Position numbers and translations under genes: made by a program
Shown: piece after piece, positions 1 through 12,120 of the stretch
Layout: each line of letters opens with the position of its first letter
Numbering within the stretch: the first letter of the stretch is position 1
Assembly (NCBI GenBank): GCA_903825245.1
Contig: CAIJZX010000029.1
Coordinates: 1 to 61,890 of the forward strand
Length of the DNA: 61,890 nucleotides
Direction of reading: 5' to 3'
Source of the DNA: Candidatus Kerfeldbacteria bacterium
Lineage (GTDB): Bacteria; Patescibacteriota; Patescibacteriia; SBBC01; CAIJZX01
The notes under the pieces: generated by a model
Told to the model about the DNA's origin: nothing
Databases searched by the model: none
The model's input: the letters and a program-made list of their open reading frames with translations, nothing else

Positions 1-2298
1 AAACTTGCCGGCTTCAATCTTCGAGACGTTGAGGAATTGGTTGATCAGCCGGATCATACGCTGCGATTCGCCGAGCAAATCGACGAGTATTTTTTGGTGT
101 TCCGGTTTAATTTTACCGAAATCCCCTTGTGTCATCATCGACAAGTATCCCATGATGCCCGTCATCGGCGTCCGCAATTGGTGCGAGGCGATTGATACGA
201 ATTCCGATTTCGCCCGGTCGAGTTCTTGCAAGTGTTTGTTGGCGTCTTCCAGCTGATCGTTCGTTTTGCGAATTCTATCGAAGAGCGTGATGTTTCGAGC
301 GACAACGCCGAGTTCATCAGCCATCGATTGCAAGGTTTCGATTTCGCGCTGGGAAATTTGCGCTCGCTCGCGTTTCGCCCCGACCTCAATCACGCCGATA
401 ACTTTTTGCTCGGACACAATCGGCACGAGAATCATGGTCCGAATGCCGATCGCCTTCTGCATCGCATTGGCAATGAGCTTCGGAATCGGCGGCGACAACA
501 CCTCTGCCATACTGTTTGAAAATCGAACTTCACCAGTATTGATGACATCATATGCTAGCGTATGTTGGCTTTGATTCGTTAGGTCTGTTGTGTACGTCGA
601 AACTTGCTTCGGTAACAATTTCATCGCTTTCGTTGTCAACGGTGTTTCGGTTACGGCGCGCGCGCGAAGCGTTTTCCCGTCGTCATCGAGTAAAATAAGA
701 ATCGCGCCTAAGAAACCGAGCTCCGTCGCAACAGCGTTAGCAATATTTTGTACGACCTTACCAAAATCAAGCGTACGGGTAATGTCCTTCGTAATCGTTT
801 GCAGGGTTTGCAACGACACGTTCCGATCGCGCAATTCTTTTGTTGCGTCGTCTACTTTTACTTTTAGATCTTCGCTGAACTCGCGGACTTCTTCGTACAA
901 GCTCGCTTTTTGAATCGCTGACCCGATTTGTGGCGCGAGGACATCAATCAACTGCGTATCCTCGTTCGAGAACGAATCGCCGGAGAGTTTTGGTCCAAGC
1001 GTTAAGACGGCAACGAGATGATTTTCCGAGAAAATTGGCGCAACCAGGGCAACACCAAGACGTTCAAACTCTGCTTTCGAAGCAATTTCCTTATCGCGAT
1101 CCGGTCCTTCCGGGGTATCTTCAATTTTTCGTTCTAACGCTTCGAGTAATGATAGGTGTTGGTGGTCGCGGACGAAACGAATAAGCGGGCTATCATTTGC
1201 AATAACAATATCTGTCTTAGGATAAACGTCCTCAGCGGTCACCGAAAACTTCGTCGTTTTGCCTTGTTTATCTTGGGTGCGCAGTAATATCAAGCTATTT
1301 TTTACTTTGAGACCTTGCGTCAGTTCTTTTTCAAGATCATCGAGCAGTTTTTGGAGATCGAGTTCTATTGAAATAATTGAACTTAGGTTTTGTAGTAGTT
1401 TTGTATATTCAATTTTTGCTTGAAAAAAGACCTTATCGGTAGTTTTTGACAATAATCTTTTTAACGGGTCTAAGCCAGTAACAACAAGTATGGCAATTAC
1501 TATTGAAATTCCAGTTCTAGCGCTAGAAGAGCCATTAAAAAATTGTGCAGAGAGTAATAATACAGAAATAAACAACAATGCTACTAATGTCACTAGAATA
1601 CCGTATATCAGTGACCTAGTAAGGACAACCCTAATATCGAGTAGCCTATGCCGTATGATCGCATAAAAAGTGAAGCCTACCCAAATTAATGAGCTTGGAC
1701 TATCAAGGAAGGCGAGATTTGGAAAACCGATTGATGTAAACAATACGCCAGCAGTTATAGCCAGAAGACCATATCCAACCATCCCGAATAAAGTGTATCG
1801 TAGTTGCTCTCTTAAAACCCCATGCGAATTTTTATAATATCTATTCGTAATAAGTACCACATAAATGAATGTAAAAAGTTGGGCTACCAACATCACATCG
1901 AACCATGGTCCGGACACACCCTTAAATACGATTGGGGATATTCTATGGATATTAGTTAAAAATCCTGGCAAAAATGTAATAAGAAAAACAAAAAGGCCAA
2001 GAATAATAAATGGTACTATTTTCTTTAGTGAAACAGATCTGCCTTCTACAAAGTACTGAACCCATATAATTCCTGCACAAGTCAAAGACACTCCAATTCC
2101 CCATATTGGTGGGAGTATTTGGGTCAATCCAGTCAATCGTAATAGAATATTTAAAACTCCAATCAAGGAAGACAATATGGCAATAACAAAAAACCATTGA
2201 TTAGAGATGTTTCTACTATTTCTCTTCAACGCAAGTATTCCAAGAAAAGCATTCGAAACCGCAGCTATCGACATTATTATTAATGCTGCTTGGTACAT
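1..2298 (-). CDS. 7TM-GAF-GAF sensor histidine kinase, 3' end outside window
   Basis: The frame is open from ATG 2298 to the window edge (766 codons), so the C-terminal ATPase domain is not visible. Residues about 1-215 form a multi-pass membrane region resembling the 7TM N-terminal domain of histidine kinases. Two more hydrophobic segments follow at about 226-280, then two GAF-like sensor domains (about 296-470 and 490-676). A HisKA dimerisation domain has the phospho-acceptor His at about 706 (SHQLRTPMTG) and reads SKIEAGKF at the edge. The start lies 7 nt after the stop of the upstream PLP enzyme gene, so the two are co-transcribed. Four free-standing relatives of its membrane region lie upstream in the operon. 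Autophosphorylation is inferred from the family; the ligand is unknown. Confidence 0.9.
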   Translation of the reverse strand, partial: MYQAALIIMSIAAVSNAFLGILALKRNSRNISNQWFFVIAILSSLIGVLNILLRLTGLTQILPPIWGIGVSLTCAGIIWVQYFVEGRSVSLKKIVPFIILGLFVFLITFLPGFLTNIHRISPIVFKGVSGPWFDVMLVAQLFTFIYVVLITNRYYKNSHGVLREQLRYTLFGMVGYGLLAITAGVLFTSIGFPNLAFLDSPSSLIWVGFTFYAIIRHRLLDIRVVLTRSLIYGILVTLVALLFISVLLLSAQFFNGSSSARTGISIVIAILVVTGLDPLKRLLSKTTDKVFFQAKIEYTKLLQNLSSIISIELDLQKLLDDLEKELTQGLKVKNSLILLRTQDKQGKTTKFSVTAEDVYPKTDIVIANDSPLIRFVRDHQHLSLLEALERKIEDTPEGPDRDKEIASKAEFERLGVALVAPIFSENHLVAVLTLGPKLSGDSFSNEDTQLIDVLAPQIGSAIQKASLYEEVREFSEDLKVKVDDATKELRDRNVSLQTLQTITKDITRTLDFGKVVQNIANAVATELGFLGAILILLDDDGKTLRARAVTETPLTTKAMKLLPKQVSTYTTDLTNQSQHTLAYDVINTGEVRFSNSMAEVLSPPIPKLIANAMQKAIGIRTMILVPIVSEQKVIGVIEVGAKRERAQISQREIETLQSMADELGVVARNITLFDRIRKTNDQLEDANKHLQELDRAKSEFVSIASHQLRTPMTGIMGYLSMMTQGDFGKIKPEHQKILVDLLGESQRMIRLINQFLNVSKIEAGKF

Positions 2299-2305
2299 GA
2301 TTATT

Positions 2306-3517
2306 CTACTCCTTGATGGTTTTAAAGAATTCGATTACTTTATTTACGTCACCCTCTGTGTGTTGTGATGTAAAGTTAAAGCGCACACGACTTTCACCCC
2401 ATGGTACTGCGGGATACCTTACTACGGAAGCCATGATCCCGGCTATTGCCAATTCCTTCTCTACTTCGATGGATTTATTGTCATCACCAAGCATTACAAG
2501 CATAACTGGAGCGTTACCTCCAAGCACCTCAAACCCTAAATCAGCTATTCCGTGTTTAAATTGTTTGGCTAATAATATTATTTTTTTTCTGTCTTCAGAA
2601 GACTGTTTCACTAACTTAATTGATTCATTAACGGCTGCCGAAAGTATCGGCGGCAACGGCGCCGATAATATGCTTGTTTTTGATGCGACACGGATATAAT
2701 CAATCAAGTCATGATTACCGGCAACGAACCCCCCAAAAACCCCAAAGGCTTTTGTCATAGTGCCCATATAGAAATCCACATCTTTAATATTTTGATCAAA
2801 ATATTCGGGGGTACCGCCTCCATTCTCGCCTAAAACCCCAATAGCATCCGCATCATCAAGCCACAGCATAGCTGAATATCTTTTCTTTAGTTCAATAATT
2901 CTAGGGAGAGGCAATATACTACCATCTGTTGTAAACACTCCCTGTGTAATAATTAATTTTCTTTCCGTTTTACAATTTTTTAAAGCTTTTTCCAATTCGA
3001 CCATGTCATTATGTTTATATACAACCTTTTCACATTTCGCTAGTCTAATCGCATCATGTATACTTCCATGATTACTTTTGTCACTAAAAACCGTTATCTC
3101 ATCTCGTTTAGGATCACGTCCCGACATTCCCGGGATGTTAATCGGATTTATTATTGTGGGTAAGGCTCCAATATTAGCCATATAACCAGTTGAAAAAACT
3201 ATTGCGTCATCAGCCCCGATAAATGCTGCAAGGGTTTTTTCAAGTTCCTCGTGAATATCATGACTACCACCTAAAACTCTTGTCGAACCAGAGCTAATCC
3301 CATATTTCTTTAAAGCAGCAACTACTGCATCCTTAACCTTTTCATTATCTGACATCCCTAAATAATTATTTGAGGTAAAATTTAAAACCTCCTTGCCTCC
3401 TATTTGTACTTTTGATTTTGAACCAGATGTGTGAGAAATCGTTGGCTTTGGGAAAAGGCCAGCTTTCTTTATTATTTCTATAATAGCGGAGTAAACTGAG
3501 GTGGGAGAGCTATACAT
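2306..3517 (-). CDS. Alpha-oxoamine-synthase-type PLP enzyme (BioF/KBL/CqsA fold)
   Basis: The 403-residue protein has the alpha-oxoamine synthase layout: NNYLGMSD near 50, GGSHDIHEELE near 83-93, His150 (SNHGSIHDA) expected to stack on PLP, Asp221 binding the pyridine nitrogen, and the Schiff-base Lys256 in TMTKAFG. The C-terminus has HTEGDVNKVIEFF. Family members condense an amino acid with an acyl-CoA to make an alpha-amino ketone (biotin, haem, sphingoid base, threonine breakdown, CAI-1-type signals). The usual DDAH/DEAH motif reads DDAD (221-224), so the conserved His is Asp224. No biotin or lipid genes are adjacent. It overlaps the aminotransferase by 8 nt and precedes a histidine kinase, which favours signal synthesis, but the substrate is unknown. 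An acyl-ACP or other metabolic role remains possible. Confidence 0.85.
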   Translation of the reverse strand: MYSSPTSVYSAIIEIIKKAGLFPKPTISHTSGSKSKVQIGGKEVLNFTSNNYLGMSDNEKVKDAVVAALKKYGISSGSTRVLGGSHDIHEELEKTLAAFIGADDAIVFSTGYMANIGALPTIINPINIPGMSGRDPKRDEITVFSDKSNHGSIHDAIRLAKCEKVVYKHNDMVELEKALKNCKTERKLIITQGVFTTDGSILPLPRIIELKKRYSAMLWLDDADAIGVLGENGGGTPEYFDQNIKDVDFYMGTMTKAFGVFGGFVAGNHDLIDYIRVASKTSILSAPLPPILSAAVNESIKLVKQSSEDRKKIILLAKQFKHGIADLGFEVLGGNAPVMLVMLGDDNKSIEVEKELAIAGIMASVVRYPAVPWGESRVRFNFTSQHTEGDVNKVIEFFKTIKE

Positions 3518-4367
3518 GTTTTTCGATAGGTTTATGGTTTGCTAAGTAATCTTTCTGCATCGCACGAAAATCAATTATAAGATTTTTGGTTATAGCACCA
3601 ACCGAACCCCCCAATATTAACTTATTATCAACTTGAGTTACTGGCATTATGTTCATTGATGTACTCGTAATGAAACACTCATCAGCAGTATATACTTCTT
3701 CCAAAGTGATATTATCCTCCAAATATTTATAGCCCGAATCGATTACTTCAAGTAATTTTATTCTTGTAACCCCATCTAATATATCGTTAATTTTTGCACT
3801 TTTTATAACTCCATCTTTCACAATAAAAAAGTTCGTTCTGGTACCTTCGGTTACAAATCCTTTACTATTGATCAGCAGACTATCCATTGCTCCCTGTTGC
3901 ACCGCCATCGAATATGCAACGTAGTTCAAGAGAGTATTAATTGATTTTGCCTTTGGAATAAATCTCTCGCCACGATATGTCACCAACTTTGCACCTTGAG
4001 AATAAATGGCATCCTTATAAAAGGTTAAGCCTAAATGGAAAATATATACATCTGAAGAAGTATTTTTCTCGGCATCCCCAAACATAATTATCCTAATTAA
4101 GCCATCTTTAATCTTATCGATTGAGCATTTCTTTTCTATCCATCCAGTTATATCGGTTTCAATATAACTATTGTTAATACCAAGTAGAGAGGCCGAATTC
4201 AAGAGTCTTTTAGCATGTAATTCTGGATAGAAAATCTTACCCTGTAGCACTTTTATTGACTCATATACACCATAATTAAACCATATCGCTTTATTCGAGA
4301 CGTGGACTGTTGCATCAGCGAAATTTAGTATTTCCCCATTACGAATTATTTTTTGATTATTATCCAT
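3510..4367 (-). CDS. Class IV PLP aminotransferase (IlvE/Dat/PabC family)
   Basis: The 285-residue length is normal for fold-type IV transaminases. Lys141 in KAKSINTLLNYV is the predicted PLP lysine, and Glu174 in VTEGTRTNFF is the conserved cofactor-contacting Glu. The family transaminates branched-chain or D-amino acids or cleaves aminodeoxychorismate; the sequence does not decide which. Its 3' end overlaps the start of the oxoamine-synthase-like gene, so translation is probably coupled and the two may act in one pathway. A TATACT hexamer at about 4411-4416 (minus) could be an internal promoter, but no -35 was evident. Ile, Asn and Lys codons are AT-rich compared with the rest of the window, suggesting the operon was acquired. 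Confidence 0.85.
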   Translation of the reverse strand: MDNNQKIIRNGEILNFADATVHVSNKAIWFNYGVYESIKVLQGKIFYPELHAKRLLNSASLLGINNSYIETDITGWIEKKCSIDKIKDGLIRIIMFGDAEKNTSSDVYIFHLGLTFYKDAIYSQGAKLVTYRGERFIPKAKSINTLLNYVAYSMAVQQGAMDSLLINSKGFVTEGTRTNFFIVKDGVIKSAKINDILDGVTRIKLLEVIDSGYKYLEDNITLEEVYTADECFITSTSMNIMPVTQVDNKLILGGSVGAITKNLIIDFRAMQKDYLANHKPIEKHV

Positions 4368-4428
4368 ATTTAATTTATCTCTATACCTAAACCGCTAGGC
4401 CAAGTAAGTTAGTATAGCATTAAAGCAT

Positions 4429-5106
4429 TCATTTCTTTCTCGAAATAATTAATACCGTTCCTCCAATTAAAAAACCACTAGGCAAAACGGCCAATAACGG
4501 ATTTGTAATAACTGCAAAGAAGGTTGCCCACAAATTTAATATAATTGCAGGAACACCGCCCACGACTATAGACGCTATTAGGATTGCTAGATTCTGTTTG
4601 TGTGGTCCATCAATCTTATTATATCTAATAATTAGCAATATTATTGCCAAAATGAAGAGGAACGCAATGGAAATTTGAAAAAAAGCAAACAATGGACCCG
4701 GAGTTAATATGCCAGGACTATTAGGCGTGATTTGATATGAAGAATATATTGTTTTTGTAAAGAAAGCCAGGCAAGAATAGATAATACCTATTGAAATAAA
4801 AAGTAGTTTATGTATTTTATCAAACCTAAAAATCGGATATGGATAAATAAAACTAAAATATATTAACGATAAAACGAAAATAATGGCAAATATAAAAATT
4901 GAGTTAACTGCTACGTTAATAAAAATACTTGGGTTAGTATATGAGGTTAGAGCATTTGAAATAACCCATAAACCGGTACTTATCACCATAATCGACATCA
5001 CTTTACGAATTTCGCTTTTCGAGTTTGTCACCCAAAAAAATACGCCGAGTATCAACTCCCCAATCCCCACCAAATACGTTAACGTCAGTAAAATATCTTT
5101 TGTCAT
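4429..5106 (-). CDS. Stand-alone 7TM sensor-domain protein, tandem copy 4
   Basis: About 225 residues, nearly all hydrophobic, with around seven helices. It opens with LTYLVGIGELILGVFFW and then TNSKSEIRKVM, a signature shared with the next two copies, and ends in a short basic tail (SRKK). Start 5106 is preferred over an upstream ATG because it gives an ATGA overlap with the stop of the preceding copy. No kinase, GGDEF or other output domain follows. The layout matches the membrane half of the histidine kinase downstream (7TM, GP-F motif in the late loop, Arg-rich end). It may be a receptor or partner subunit; the function is not known. Confidence 0.8.
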   Translation of the reverse strand: MTKDILLTLTYLVGIGELILGVFFWVTNSKSEIRKVMSIMVISTGLWVISNALTSYTNPSIFINVAVNSIFIFAIIFVLSLIYFSFIYPYPIFRFDKIHKLLFISIGIIYSCLAFFTKTIYSSYQITPNSPGILTPGPLFAFFQISIAFLFILAIILLIIRYNKIDGPHKQNLAILIASIVVGGVPAIILNLWATFFAVITNPLLAVLPSGFLIGGTVLIISRKK

Positions 5107-5756
5107 TTCTTTCGTACGATATATGTTGTCGCCCCTAGCCAAACAATACTTGAAATCGGCCCATACAAGTAGTTATAGGGCACGTTTTCCATGAAGTGGA
5201 ATATTGCAAAGAACACACCTGGCAATCCGGCGATAAGCAATGAAAAAAAGATTATCATTGTGTTCTTTTTAGCTACACCTTCCAGTTTCGTTAATTTCCA
5301 TATAATTAACCCTAAACCCAAGAAATATAACAGGGCAAGGTAAAAATTGAACGCTGGAAAAATTGAACCTCCAGTTGTGTATCCAGCGTTATTTACAAGA
5401 TACATGTCCGCCACAACAACCCTTGTCCATAAAAGTAAGTAAGAAAAGAAAGCCCACGGAAGATATAGACCTAGCACATGTAGCCGATCGAAAGTAAATT
5501 TTCGATAAGGAAAAACAATGGCAAAGTGAACCATAGCCGTTAGTAACAGTGCGCCGAATACAAAAGGTAACACTCCAACCAATGAATACTCACTGTTTGT
5601 CATGGCGTTCGTTATCCCCCACCCTGCCGTCGCAAAAGCTAAGATCGCCATAACCCGTCGAATTTCACTCTTCGAATTCGTCGCCCAAAAGTAGATGGCG
5701 AGAATAAGTTCTCCGATACCAACCAAGTACGTTAATGCCAGTAGCAGTGTCTTCAT
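5103..5756 (-). CDS. Stand-alone 7TM sensor-domain protein, tandem copy 3
   Basis: 217 residues when started at ATG 5756 (MKTLLLALTYLVGIGELI), which overlaps the previous stop by ATGA. It shares TNSKSEIRRVMAIL with copies 2 and 4, has about seven membrane helices, and ends in YIVRKK. The inter-helix loop before the last helices (NNAGYTTGGSIFP) differs strongly from its paralogues, whereas the first helix pair is nearly constant. That pattern would fit a conserved scaffold with a variable extracytoplasmic ligand-facing part, which is an inference. Confidence 0.8.
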   Translation of the reverse strand: MKTLLLALTYLVGIGELILAIYFWATNSKSEIRRVMAILAFATAGWGITNAMTNSEYSLVGVLPFVFGALLLTAMVHFAIVFPYRKFTFDRLHVLGLYLPWAFFSYLLLWTRVVVADMYLVNNAGYTTGGSIFPAFNFYLALLYFLGLGLIIWKLTKLEGVAKKNTMIIFFSLLIAGLPGVFFAIFHFMENVPYNYLYGPISSIVWLGATTYIVRKK

Positions 5757-6427
5757 TTTCGCATGACTATGTAACTTGTTGTTCCCAACCAAATGATCGT
5801 CGAAATCGGTCCTATAAGTGGATAACTTCCGCCATTAGTAAAAATAGGCACAATAACATCTAAATAAATAGAAGGTAAACTACCTAAAAATAATGACAGC
5901 ATAACCCCTAATGTGTTCCGACGATGAATTCCGTCAGCCTTTTTATATTGCAACCAAAAAACTACGATGGAAATAAGAAAAACGATCAGGATGAAAAATG
6001 TATAAAAAGGATACAGCGGACCTCCCGACCATTTTCCTGAAACATTGGGGTTGAAAACTGATTGAGCAATACTTGGTTGATCTTTAACCAGAATTGCAGC
6101 AAACATGACCGATGGTATGTACATAAGTACATAATGTAATTTATCTAGACGTATCAGTGGATATGGATAAAGAAGGGCTAGATTAAACAACGCGGTAACC
6201 ATAAACGGCGCTAAAGAAAAAGTGAGGTTGTCTACGGATTTGATCACCTCGCTACTACCCGAATAGGACGTAAACGCATTCGCTACCACCCAAATTCCAG
6301 TGGCAAGAGAAAGAAAGGCCATTACCTTCCTGACTTCATTTTTCGAATTCGTTTTCCAAAAATAACCAGCCAGTAACAACTCTCCGAACCCAACCATATA
6401 CGTTAAGGTGATAAGAAATATTTTCAT
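5753..6427 (-). CDS. Stand-alone 7TM sensor-domain protein, tandem copy 2
   Basis: 224 residues starting MKIFLITLTYMVGFGELLLA, then TNSKNEVRKVMAFL, and ending in SYIVMRK. It is clearly paralogous to copies 3 and 4. Its ATG overlaps the stop of copy 1 as ATGA, and the same arrangement links it to copy 3, so the array is translationally coupled. It has seven predicted helices and no soluble output domain. Confidence 0.8.
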   Translation of the reverse strand: MKIFLITLTYMVGFGELLLAGYFWKTNSKNEVRKVMAFLSLATGIWVVANAFTSYSGSSEVIKSVDNLTFSLAPFMVTALFNLALLYPYPLIRLDKLHYVLMYIPSVMFAAILVKDQPSIAQSVFNPNVSGKWSGGPLYPFYTFFILIVFLISIVVFWLQYKKADGIHRRNTLGVMLSLFLGSLPSIYLDVIVPIFTNGGSYPLIGPISTIIWLGTTSYIVMRK

Positions 6428-7089
6428 TTCCGTGCCAAAACGTAAGTAGAAACGCTAAATAAAAGTAGTGCATGAAGACCGCCAATCGGAATCCTCGGAT
6501 GGCCGAGCGCCGGACGAATGACATCGAAGAACACCGCTAGTCCCGTCGTAACAAATAAGGTCAACACAAAGAGTCGAATCGAGCTTTGCGAAACGCCCTG
6601 CGCTAATGGAACTTTCTTCAGCAGTACTACAACACTAGCAATAAATAGGGTGCAGATAACTACCGGAAAGAGCCAAAAAAACAGGCCATACGTCTCATGA
6701 ATACCGCCGGAAACGAATTCGACGCTCTTCAGAAACGACGGATTGAGGAATATATAGGGCAAAAAGAACGCAATCGGCACGATCCAGAGCAGCGCATTTT
6801 TCACCGGAAGGCGTTTCGTCGGAAATGGAAAGAAGAGGCTAAACATCAGAATCATCGAAAACGTCCAGACGCCTCCGAAAAAACCAATCCGATCAAACAG
6901 AAGCGCAATTGAGGCGTCTTTTGTCGAAAAGAGTACTACTTGAGCCGTCATCATTATCGCCAAACCGACCAACACCCCGGAAAGATACAAGACCGAGTGG
7001 GAGCGTTGGTATTTCTTGACCATCCAAAACGCCGTGGCGATCGAAACCGCAATAAACACCGCGTAAATAGCGACGAGGAAGCTATTCAT
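6424..7089 (-). CDS. Stand-alone 7TM sensor-domain protein, tandem copy 1 (most diverged)
   Basis: 221 residues, first gene of the operon. It keeps the topology and C-terminal motif (STYVLARK) of the other three but lacks the TNSKSE signature, so it is the most divergent member. Hydrophobic segments cover nearly the whole protein. The likely transcript starts near 7207, giving a leader of about 118 nt without a strong Shine-Dalgarno site. The function is unknown; the architecture suggests a membrane receptor module related to kinase 7TM domains. Confidence 0.8.
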   Translation of the reverse strand: MNSFLVAIYAVFIAVSIATAFWMVKKYQRSHSVLYLSGVLVGLAIMMTAQVVLFSTKDASIALLFDRIGFFGGVWTFSMILMFSLFFPFPTKRLPVKNALLWIVPIAFFLPYIFLNPSFLKSVEFVSGGIHETYGLFFWLFPVVICTLFIASVVVLLKKVPLAQGVSQSSIRLFVLTLFVTTGLAVFFDVIRPALGHPRIPIGGLHALLLFSVSTYVLARK

Positions 7090-7213
7090 TGCGCATAGAC
7101 AATTTCCCGCTCCGGTTGTCCCGGGTGGGCAATAAAACTGATGTCACTACTTCTTTTTTTGTGATAACGCCTGAAAAGTCAGTCACGGCGAAGATGTATT
7201 AAAATACACCATG

Positions 7214-7242
7214 ACTATAACAGAAAGACCGAAAAAATGCAA
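7214..7242 (-). promoter_or_regulatory. Sigma-70 promoter of the 7TM/PLP/kinase operon
   Basis: On the minus strand: TTGCAT, 17 nt, TATAGT. It is the only good promoter seen upstream of the seven closely spaced genes, so they probably form one transcript starting near 7207. Confidence 0.7.
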
Positions 7243-7286
7243 ACTATACTGCTTTTAGCTGAAACCCACCAAAAATTGAAAACGCT

Positions 7287-8618: not shown

Positions 8619-9341
8619 TTAGAACTGTTTCATGTATGTCGGCTTGTAGGCCGTGTAGCCGCCCAGCTGATTCCACGCGAACGAGTGACGAGCAATCACG
8701 AAGGTTCCGTTGCGATCGACATTATTCGAGTCGATCAAATCCAGACCCCAACCGAGATTAGCCGCCACAATGGCACTATGTTCGCCAGGACTCAGATGCT
8801 GTATAACCCACCCAGTTTTCGCCTGGGTGATATCACAAGGTGTCATGTAACCGCTGTAGTCGTAACCACCACCAGGCAGCACCAGATGCCAGCCGTTTCC
8901 GATACCGTACGACGAACGGTACAGAACCAGATCGACGAAGAACTTGCAGTAGCCGCCGAGGTGACCACCACCATACGTCCCGTCGATACTTCCACGGTTA
9001 ACTGTCCCGCCAATGTAGCTGGTCATGACATTCAATGCAGTGTTATCACTGCGCACGTAGTCCCAGTCGCCGAGATGGATGCCCTTGTAGACGATAGTCG
9101 ACGACCCGGTCCGGTAGACGTTCAACGCATAGCATGCTTCACTAAACACGTTGTTACTCCAGTCCACACCGGTATACGTGGCATCCGGCGTTGCCACCGG
9201 CTTCTGGACGTGACTCGTGTCCGTAACTGCCTGGACGTCCGTTGCCGTCGGCTCAGTCATCTTGTTCACTTTCGAACAAGCGCCGAGAGACATGGCCAGC
9301 ATCATCATTGCTACGAGGCACTTCACCTGATTCGCCTTCAT
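8619..9341 (-). CDS. Lipoprotein with papain-like (CHAP/NlpC-like) domain, copy A
   Basis: 240 residues. A type II signal peptide ends in the lipobox LGAC with lipidated Cys22. Residues 1-41 are identical to copy B (11001-11654), while everything after is different. The C-terminal part shows a Cys132 motif (GGYCKFFVDLVLY), His188 (GEHSAIVAANLG) and DSNN at 204-207, the spacing of papain-fold amidases such as CHAP and NlpC/P60, which cut peptidoglycan peptides or amide bonds. The catalytic assignment is an inference. Translation starts after AAGGAG placed 7 nt before ATG. It could be a cell-surface murein hydrolase or an effector toward neighbouring or host cells. Confidence 0.7.
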   Translation of the reverse strand: MKANQVKCLVAMMMLAMSLGACSKVNKMTEPTATDVQAVTDTSHVQKPVATPDATYTGVDWSNNVFSEACYALNVYRTGSSTIVYKGIHLGDWDYVRSDNTALNVMTSYIGGTVNRGSIDGTYGGGHLGGYCKFFVDLVLYRSSYGIGNGWHLVLPGGGYDYSGYMTPCDITQAKTGWVIQHLSPGEHSAIVAANLGWGLDLIDSNNVDRNGTFVIARHSFAWNQLGGYTAYKPTYMKQF

Positions 9342-9748
9342 TGTGTACTCCTTGGCTTCTCCACACAGGGTGTGGGAGCGTCTGTACTTCGGGATTTTCG
9401 GCCTACGGCACTGCGTGGAGTGAATTGTCTTTCACCCCCTTTCGCGTACGTACTTTGTGAAGGATGCTCTGTGTAAAGCTTACTTAGGCACTACGTGTTT
9501 GGGCACCTCCTTTTCGATTTGTAAAGAACGATGAACCGTTGGCTTGCACAGGTTTGCGATCGGTATTTCCAGTGTTCACCGGAAATTCGACAACACAAAA
9601 CCGGCCTGATGCAGGATGTTTTCCTACACCGCCATCGTTTGCCTCACCTTAGCGAAGAACAAAACGGTGGCACGACCTTCTCCCCAAGAGGAGAAGAGCA
9701 AGCCACCGATTCGTACTTCTAGGGTACTCTTTTTTTGGGGAAAGTCAA
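9342..9748 (-). promoter_or_regulatory. Promoter and about 370-nt structured leader of lipoprotein A
   Basis: Promoter on minus: TTGACT (9743-9748), 16 nt, TACCCT (9721-9726), with transcription from about 9714. The leader opens with a hairpin CGGTGGC/GCCACCG (9665-9671 with 9702-9708) enclosing CTTCTCC/GGAGAAG. A block of about 120 nt nearly identical to leader B follows, then a central AAGGAGGTG site (9501-9512, no start codon at proper distance) and a CACAC/GTGTG hairpin (9362-9374) just before the Shine-Dalgarno. No ORF fits the conservation. It is a candidate cis-regulatory RNA. Confidence 0.65.
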
Positions 9749-9773
9749 GGGGATAAACGGCATTGAAATGCAA

Positions 9774-11000: not shown

Positions 11001-11654
11001 CTAACCGCCAATGACCTGGTAAATAGTGTAACTGCCGCCAGAAGTCGATTCGAATTTGGCGTAAGTCACATAGTGGATTTCCAAGCCACCGAGAAAGTCC
11101 ATATTGCAGTCAATGACGTAAACGCCATTTCCGTCATTGGACCAGATGATCATGGTGTGGGGCCAACTTCCCCAACTGGCCTGGACGATCTGTCCACGCT
11201 GAGCGCCGTTGATCGGCATACCAGCAGGACCATAGCCAGGAATGTTAACATACTGGCCAGCTGCCCATCTCGACCACGACGTACTCGCGGGTAGGGAGGC
11301 GACGTTACGAGAAGCAACGAGAACAACGTGCTGTGCCCAGGTCTTGCAATTGTATCCGGACGGACGAGAAAGCTTGTTGAGTCCGCCGCCAAGCGCAACC
11401 ATTTCGGTATTTGCTTCCTGGCAAATCGCTTCGTTTCTCTGCGCCTGGGTAAGGCTCCGCCACCACTGCTGATTCGCAACAGTACCGCCGAAATTACCTG
11501 CCCCCGGCTTCTGAACGCCAGAAACGCTGGAATCCGTAACTGCCTGGACGTCCGTTGCCGTCGGCTCAGTCATCTTGTTCACTTTCGAACAAGCGCCGAG
11601 AGACATGGCCAGCATCATCATTGCTACGAGACACTTCACCTGATTCGCCTTCAT
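11001..11654 (-). CDS. Lipoprotein with papain-like (CHAP/NlpC-like) domain, copy B
   Basis: 217 residues from ATG 11654, with AAGGAG 7 nt upstream. The signal peptide, lipobox (LGAC, Cys22) and following linker to residue 41 are identical to copy A, then the sequences diverge completely. The payload has Cys103 (YNCKTWAQHVV), GQIVQ at 154-158, His166 (PHTMIIWSNDG) and Asp182/Asn184 (VIDCNMD), an arrangement typical of CHAP-like cysteine amidases. It is followed by a terminator and then the propeller gene. A shared export module joined to unrelated payloads suggests recombination or strong diversifying selection. Enzyme activity is inferred only. Confidence 0.7.
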   Translation of the reverse strand: MKANQVKCLVAMMMLAMSLGACSKVNKMTEPTATDVQAVTDSSVSGVQKPGAGNFGGTVANQQWWRSLTQAQRNEAICQEANTEMVALGGGLNKLSRPSGYNCKTWAQHVVLVASRNVASLPASTSWSRWAAGQYVNIPGYGPAGMPINGAQRGQIVQASWGSWPHTMIIWSNDGNGVYVIDCNMDFLGGLEIHYVTYAKFESTSGGSYTIYQVIGG

Positions 11655-12091
11655 TGTGTACTCCTTGGGCTTCTCCACGCGGTGCGTGGGAGCGTCTGTA
11701 CTGCAGGATTTGCAGCCAATCGGCACTGCGTGGAGTGAATACTTATTCACCTCCCTTCGCGTGCGTATAACGTGAAGGATGCTATGGGATTAAGCATTTT
11801 CAGGTACTACGTGGTTGAACACCTCCTTATGATTGTCACGTAAATCTTTCGCCACGTGGCACTGTAATGAGCGATGAACCGTTGGCTTGCACAGGTTTGC
11901 GATCGGTATTTCCAGTGTTCACCGGAAATTCGACAACACAAAACCGGCCTGATGCAGGATGTTTTCCTACACCGCCATCGTTTGCTTCACCTTGGGTAAA
12001 ATCAAAACGGTGGCACGACCTTCTCCACAGAGGAAGAAGAGCAAGCCACCGATTCGTAACTACAGGATACTCCTTCGGAGGAAAATGTCAA
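11655..12091 (-). promoter_or_regulatory. Promoter and about 400-nt structured leader of lipoprotein B
   Basis: Promoter on minus: TTGACA (12086-12091), 16 nt, TATCCT (12064-12069). The leader repeats that of copy A: hairpin CGGTGGC/GCCACCG (12008-12014 with 12045-12051), the nearly identical central block at about 11867-11986, and an AAGGAGGTG site (11819-11828). The pre-SD hairpin CACGC/GCGTG (11676-11688) differs from copy A (CACAC/GTGTG) by a compensatory pair change. That change supports conserved RNA structure. Confidence 0.65.
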
Positions 12092-12120
12092 GAACAAACA
12101 GAAGAAAAACGCGTCGCTGA

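Follow-up and report, generated by a model that had tools for sequence, protein, structure and literature searches.

The first 7,242 positions of a 61,890-nucleotide stretch of Candidatus Kerfeldbacteria DNA (the window, which is the complete contig C29 of genome G000) carry a seven-gene operon that probably encodes a signalling cassette in which a synthase and its sensor form an exchangeable front end. All seven genes lie on the minus strand and were present as first described: four seven-transmembrane (7TM) proteins without output domains (here called free 7TM proteins), coupled by ATGA overlaps; a class IV transaminase overlapping an alpha-oxoamine synthase (AOS); and a histidine kinase with a 7TM region and two GAF domains. 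The AOS belongs to the pyridoxal phosphate (PLP)-dependent acyl-CoA:amino acid C-acyltransferase family and is the candidate signal synthase. The original prediction, made from the sequence alone, was of an operon that makes and senses an oxoamine-type signal in a reduced genome, and the genome is indeed reduced in size (1.30 Mb in 42 contigs). AOS genes of the same clade recur beside 7TM genes, an orthologous operon in a related genome carries a different enzyme block, and the type of synthase and the type of kinase sensor are inherited together.

Linkage and co-exchange of synthase and sensor genes

A hidden Markov model (HMM) of the nearest relatives of the AOS, A1, was run on 381 genomes of the class. 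It separated 18 complete members scoring at least 546 bits from the other full-length genes, which scored 430 bits or less. The clade is patchy, being present in 19 of the 381 genomes; one further member comes from a different class of the same phylum (506 bits) and another, scoring 526 bits, from a 3.3-Mb genome beyond the searched set. Among the matches listed in genome contigs, only L059, from an unclassified 3.3-Mb metagenome-assembled genome, joins the clade, the others being ordinary AOS enzymes; viral contigs yielded no AOS relatives.

Eighteen of 22 clade AOS genes were adjacent to, or one gene away from, a gene for a 7TM protein or 7TM kinase. Of the other four, two sit at contig ends, one has 7TM kinases at a distance of up to 5 kb and the last has no such gene nearby. 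None of the 16 AOS genes of the KBL type in the same class lay that close to a 7TM protein or kinase gene (18/22 versus 0/16; Fisher p = 2e-7 with all four exceptions counted as failures). The 7TM family PF16927 (HisKA_7TM) was present in 18 of the 19 genomes carrying the clade (Fisher p = 7e-6). AOS, 7TM and kinase genes are linked in many families within the class, and also in a single genome from another class of the phylum and in the 3.3-Mb genome outside the search set. The linkage is therefore not unique to this contig; uniqueness would have told against the original prediction.

Free 7TM genes stand beside the AOS gene in the window and in loci L033, L034, L173, L175, L176 and L177, and longer 7TM proteins are encoded in L036. 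The recurrent companions of the AOS are AMP-binding acyl-CoA ligases, alpha/beta hydrolases and receiver proteins; PlsC, an NAD-epimerase and a possible acetoacetate-decarboxylase-like protein were found at single or few AOS loci. Acyl-CoA ligase genes occurred in five AOS neighbourhoods and in seven other 7TM cassettes. The only AMP-ligase match of the window genome lies elsewhere, beside PlsC genes, and is closely related (543 bits) to the ligase whose gene immediately precedes the AOS operon in genome G084.

A second genome of the same family, G002, carries an operon of four free 7TM genes, a GNAT gene, a ThiF gene and a kinase gene, in which the GNAT and ThiF genes occupy the position of the transaminase and AOS genes of the window. 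The kinase, the free 7TM proteins and the upstream gene of G002 are homologous to those of the window, the kinase and 7TM proteins ranking first among the loci examined. With TIGR03694 the GNAT scores above the cut-off, and the solved structure most closely related to it is that of an autoinducer synthase. The cytoplasmic parts of the two kinases are 57-70% identical (70% in the catalytic domain); the 7TM regions are 24% identical, and their first 100 residues 16%. The free 7TM proteins, which the original prediction had suggested as possible receptor variants, are orthologous across the swap (35-42%; 38% between the first free 7TM proteins of the two operons) and are thus not behaving as product-specific receptors; it is the 7TM region of the kinase that changed. 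The transaminase, AOS and fourth free 7TM genes have a GC content of 0.33-0.39 and the remainder of the contig one of 0.49, as would fit the replacement of a block. In the closest genome compared (G001, same genus, 88% complete), neither an AOS nor a HisKA_7TM was seen.

Of 67 7TM sensors compared, 13 of them AOS-linked, the ten nearest to that of the window kinase all belong to this AOS-linked set (p = 1e-9, a value that assumes independent sequences, so that the comparison of trees is the safer statement). The nearest catalytic domains come from kinases associated with other enzymes. Trees of the 7TM and catalytic domains of the same 68 kinases were compared. In the 7TM tree, a quick tree without bootstrap, a single clade (SH-aLRT 100) held 13 of the 14 AOS-linked kinases, and 2 changes sufficed to account for the AOS label. 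In the catalytic tree the label needed 11 changes against 12.8 for shuffled labels (68 proteins), and monophyly of the catalytic domains of AOS-linked kinases was rejected (p-AU = 5.5e-5). Because the 7TM sensors cluster by AOS while the catalytic domains scatter, we conclude that synthase and sensor were exchanged together on a kinase chassis. Such co-exchange would be expected of a sensor that recognises what the neighbouring enzyme makes, and suggests that this sensor may do so.

The same slot holds other synthases. PF16927 occurs in 177 of the 381 genomes, and a 2020 survey (PMC7567580) had already predicted synthase-kinase pairs of this sort, so that the system is not unexpected in this group, as had been supposed for a reduced genome. 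What immediately precedes the kinase varied over 56 additional 7TM loci, the gene or genes there encoding FeeM/LuxI/TIGR03694 N-acyltransferases with or without ThiF, methyltransferases (tagged only approximately, the HMM being broad), PlsC and others. Thirteen LuxI-family (PF00765) genes of the class exceeded the Pfam cut-off. Ten of these thirteen lie no more than 1.5 kb from a 7TM protein gene, and in at least one more of them (in G164) such a gene comes just past ThiF.

Some individual loci show additional features. In L035 (9582-10376), L146 (2700-3141) and L173 (9895-10644), the AOS is directly followed by a conserved protein that matched no Pfam family above cut-off and has weak similarity to acetoacetate decarboxylase (E = 0.0045). 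A predicted structure of the acetoacetate-decarboxylase-like p264 protein was of low confidence (59.9) and was not used. The complete kinase among these three loci, that of L173, has a sensor from another clade. In L048 (1083-2302, genome G021) and L177 (3858-5017, genome G369) the clade AOS is split into two frames and the adjacent 7TM or kinase gene stays open; the split may reflect a frameshift, decay or an assembly error. Locus L178 (7904-13759; genome G381, 3.3 Mb, outside the class) encodes a clade AOS, then a 7TM-DUF835 protein and, as identified by eye, a separate histidine kinase and an NtrC-like regulator, and may represent the same system in more complete form. Directly downstream of the G002 kinase (L216, 4256-5830) lies a 524-aa gene, by eye resembling a histidine/aromatic ammonia-lyase, which may belong to that operon.

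The alpha-oxoamine synthase

The AOS gene (2306..3517, minus strand, GC 0.386) was compared with the NCBIfam models. The top match was bioF at 356 bits (cut-off 426), followed by KBL at 334 bits (cut-off 460) and then by serine palmitoyltransferase (SPT) and ALAS. All SPT equivalog cut-offs were missed (285/640, 260/500 and 217/670 bits). The alpha-hydroxyketone synthase model NF005526 gave 165 bits (cut-off 428), less than the BioF, KBL, SPT and ALAS models, and the best match to it among 11 A1 members was likewise weaker than those to BioF, KBL and SPT. A search with NF005526 of 35 named genomes returned one match, below cut-off, to an SPT-like gene.

In trees, a check that the original prediction had proposed, the AOS clade lay apart from BioF, from KBL and from enzymes of the Bacillus/Thermus type and had SPT-like enzymes as neighbours (84/88). 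The clade together with L185 received 99/93 support once long branches were removed. CqsA was represented by its PDB sequence, and the references did not include LqsA. The CqsA branch, some 5 changes per site in length, attached near the clade in one tree and had no supported placement. An insertion at about residues 126-141 (3095..3142, minus strand), delimited from alignment blocks, is common to all clade members and L185 and is absent from BioF, KBL, SPT and CqsA.

Lys256 of the AOS aligns with Lys236 of BioF and with the corresponding lysine of CqsA, the PLP lysine common to all AOS enzymes. The codon GAT at 2846..2848 (minus strand) specifies Asp224 at a position where a PLP-contacting histidine (His207 of BioF) is otherwise conserved. 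This change and those giving Gln192 and Thr196 are confined to the window copy.

The operon and the sensor kinase

The single promoter of the original prediction was not demonstrated: a weak candidate (TTTGCA-18-TATAGT with TG preceding the second hexamer; 7214..7243, minus strand) precedes the first 7TM gene by 124 bp, yet promoter-like sites were fewer in the region than in shuffles. The free 7TM genes follow as TM1 (6424..7089; PF16927, E = 8.5e-7), the most divergent of the four, TM2 (5753..6427; PF16927, E = 2.9e-11), TM3 (5103..5756; PF16927) and TM4 (4429..5106; 208 bits with a family HMM that has TM4 among its members and the window kinase in its seed), all on the minus strand. The ATGA overlaps between TM1 and TM2, TM2 and TM3, and TM3 and TM4 led us to correct the starts of TM3 to 5756 and of TM4 to 5106. 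Matches of the free 7TM proteins to PF16927 ranged from E = 1e-5 to 3e-11, that of TM4 falling under Pfam's own cut-off.

An AlphaFold2 model of TM2 (pLDDT 87, pTM 0.84) predicts seven helices with a beta hairpin between helices 4 and 5. The nearest solved folds found by Foldseek were G-protein-coupled receptors (GPCRs), for example LPA1 (TM-score up to 0.69, root mean square deviation mostly 5-8 Å). The likeness is taken as one of seven-helix shape, which is not evidence of homology and is compatible with ligand binding. The PDB contained no direct sequence match to the free 7TM proteins. No catalytic motif was found in the 7TM proteins, making an enzymatic role unlikely.

TM4 is separated by a 61-nt gap from the transaminase gene (3510..4367, minus strand, GC 0.337), which overlaps the AOS gene by 8 nt; a 7-nt gap separates the AOS and kinase genes. 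The transaminase is a class IV aminotransferase of the D-amino-acid/branched-chain type (PF01063, E = 8.9e-42), with D-alanine aminotransferase 9pxs as its closest solved structure (2.9e-29). Among the loci examined it adjoins an AOS only in the window genome, so that two PLP enzymes are not the conserved core. Another class IV transaminase, a distant relative of that of the window (24%), stands beside a free 7TM gene in a cassette without an AOS (L209 6032-7856, genome G127).

The window encodes the N-terminal 766 of the 943 residues of the histidine kinase (1..2298, minus strand), with the 7TM region at about 1624-2298, the second of two GAF stretches at about 304-771 and HisKA at about 7-213 (E = 3e-17). 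The 7TM region scored 219 bits with the family HMM, in whose seed this kinase stands; Pfam reports no 7TM for it and does so for kinases of related loci. The gene is truncated by the contig start. Contig C31 overlaps C29 by exactly 141 bp and carries the remainder, including the ATPase part, and the join is confirmed by the match of both halves to one protein of a genome from the same family (56% and 70% identity). By its domain order, an N-terminal 7TM followed by HisKA/HATPase, the protein is a HisKA_7TM sensor kinase. It has weak similarity to PrsK (29.7 bits).

The response regulator that the original prediction proposed to look for to the left of the window was found on C31, where the kinase gene is followed first by a small DUF559-like gene, next by one for a single-domain response regulator and then by one for dihydroorotate dehydrogenase (the first and last named by eye). 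The regulator consists of a receiver domain only (L192, which is C31, 17153-17620; PF00072, E = 2.5e-12). Its proximity makes it the putative two-component partner of the kinase.

Further into the window, two adjacent secreted-protein genes on the minus strand (8619-9341 and 11001-11750) have a near-identical upstream region and N terminus, and their C-terminal parts differ. The shared stretches (9220-9749 versus 11533-12092) comprise 136 nt at 99% and 230 nt at 89%, a pattern suggestive of the duplication of a leader cassette.

Proposed mechanism, alternatives and known systems

In the proposed mechanism the AOS would join an acyl thioester to an amino acid, perhaps one set in the window genome by the class IV transaminase, to give an amphiphilic alpha-aminoketone or a derivative of it, which might be released from the cell. 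The 7TM region of the kinase would bind the product, or a derivative of the product, in or at the membrane and so control autophosphorylation; phosphate would be transferred to the downstream single-domain response regulator, which would presumably mediate a response. The free 7TM proteins would serve as receptor chassis, for example as partner subunits of the kinase 7TM, rather than as product-specific receptors. Evolution would insert varied acyl-transfer synthases (AOS, LuxI/FeeM-type N-acyltransferase with ThiF, and others), each with a matching 7TM region, into this chassis. The pairing of a synthase with a membrane kinase in the original prediction is well supported; the signal and its export are conjectural. 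More tentatively, the cassettes may represent a modular lipid-signalling platform of ultra-small bacteria, combining a kinase chassis and an array of GPCR-shaped free 7TM proteins with swapped synthase/sensor pairs (the synthases perhaps including methyltransferases) into lineage-specific chemical dialects served by an unchanged transducer.

Several observations weigh against a signalling cassette with an exchangeable front end. Its product and ligand are inferred only. The clade AOS of L171 has no neighbouring 7TM gene, and the AOS-linked kinase with an other-clade sensor, in L173, is separated from its AOS by an extra gene. The 7TM of the window kinase lies on a long branch, and its pairing with the G002 7TM narrowly escaped rejection (p-AU = 0.058). 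With three unique substitutions in the PLP pocket, the catalytic competence of the window AOS is uncertain. The response regulator lacks an output domain and so indicates no target, and the DUF559-like gene separates it from the kinase. Finally, the PlsC, NAD-epimerase and acyl-CoA ligase neighbours would fit lipid synthesis too.

These neighbours bring in the main alternative, that of membrane-lipid tailoring under feedback, in which the SPT-like AOS would make an aminolipid or sphingolipid and other cassettes N-acyl amino lipids, and the kinase would sense the cell's own membrane with no cell-to-cell signal. Such feedback predicts an identical co-exchange of synthase and sensor, and it draws on the position of the clade nearest SPT-like enzymes, the NAD-epimerase between AOS and kinase in L176, the PlsC acyltransferases adjoining the AOS in L035 and L181, the acyl-CoA ligases near AOS genes and a weak similarity of the GNATs to OlsB. 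We nevertheless regard it as rather unlikely, since the epimerase is beside the AOS in just 1 of 22 loci, the AOS scores far under the SPT family cut-offs, LuxI-type enzymes of the same slot reach the Autoind_synth cut-off, and a structural lipid would not usually occur so patchily.

Quorum sensing by a true alpha-hydroxyketone, through homologues of CqsA/CqsS or LqsA/LqsS, the comparison drawn in the original prediction, is very improbable. The enzymes share a fold class, CqsA fell near the clade in one tree, and a 2020 survey named such pairs CqsA/CqsS (PMC7567580). The AOS is, however, not particularly CqsA- or LqsA-like: it scores lower with the alpha-hydroxyketone synthase model than with those of four other families, and CqsA has a very long branch without supported placement and lacks the insertion. 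The sensors, too, are of different families, CqsS and LqsS being six-helix kinases (PMC3376566) and that of the window a HisKA_7TM kinase. That an ordinary metabolic AOS of KBL or BioF type stands beside the kinase by chance can be given hardly any credence. Although bioF and KBL gave the top profile scores, the enzyme falls outside both in trees and under every equivalog cut-off, no biotin or threonine genes adjoin it, and neither the recurrent 7TM linkage nor the co-exchange of sensors would be expected.

Little is understood of the ways in which host-dependent ultra-small bacteria sense their neighbours or hosts. If the exchangeable signalling cassette is real, a large family of 7TM kinases, for which ligands are not known, would gain candidate ligands predictable from the adjacent synthase gene, natural swaps such as that between the window genome and G002 would provide ready pairs for studying specificity, and the predicted CqsA-like and LuxI-like pairs of the candidate phyla radiation (CPR) would merge into one system.

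Like CqsA/CqsS of Vibrio and LqsA/LqsS/LqsR of Legionella, the operon places a gene for a PLP-dependent synthase of the AOS family beside one for a multi-helix membrane histidine kinase, and like Lqs it has a response regulator nearby. It differs from both in its separate AOS clade with an insertion, in a sensor of 7TM (PF16927) plus GAF architecture, set apart from the 6TM sensors by family and helix number, in its additional free 7TM genes, and in the replacement of the synthase by LuxI/FeeM-like enzymes in related operons. The 2020 survey recorded, in CPR genomes, 51 homologues of CqsA encoded next to CqsS-like kinases and 18 of LuxI next to kinases (PMC7567580, mSystems 2020); these pairs very probably include loci of the window's kind, and the basic synthase-kinase pairing is therefore not new. 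In the text available, CqsA-like and LuxI-like pairs are treated separately, by reference-family name, and no distinct AOS clade, array of free 7TM proteins, shared slot or sensor co-exchange is described.

Bacterial SPT is the closest relative of the AOS by tree and has the same acyl-CoA plus amino acid chemistry; unlike the SPT of sphingolipid clusters, the AOS forms a separate clade well below the SPT cut-offs, with sphingolipid partner genes generally absent. The alternative synthases of L202, L210, L216 and L220 pass TIGR03694, the model of the PEP-CTERM/exosortase-associated acyltransferase. No exosortase was noticed in the gene lists, in which no dedicated search for one was made. A TIGR03694-type enzyme of Neisseria produces long-chain N-acyl amides (PMC9762135). 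Compared with TIGR03694/PrsK systems, the window has an AOS in the place of the acyltransferase.

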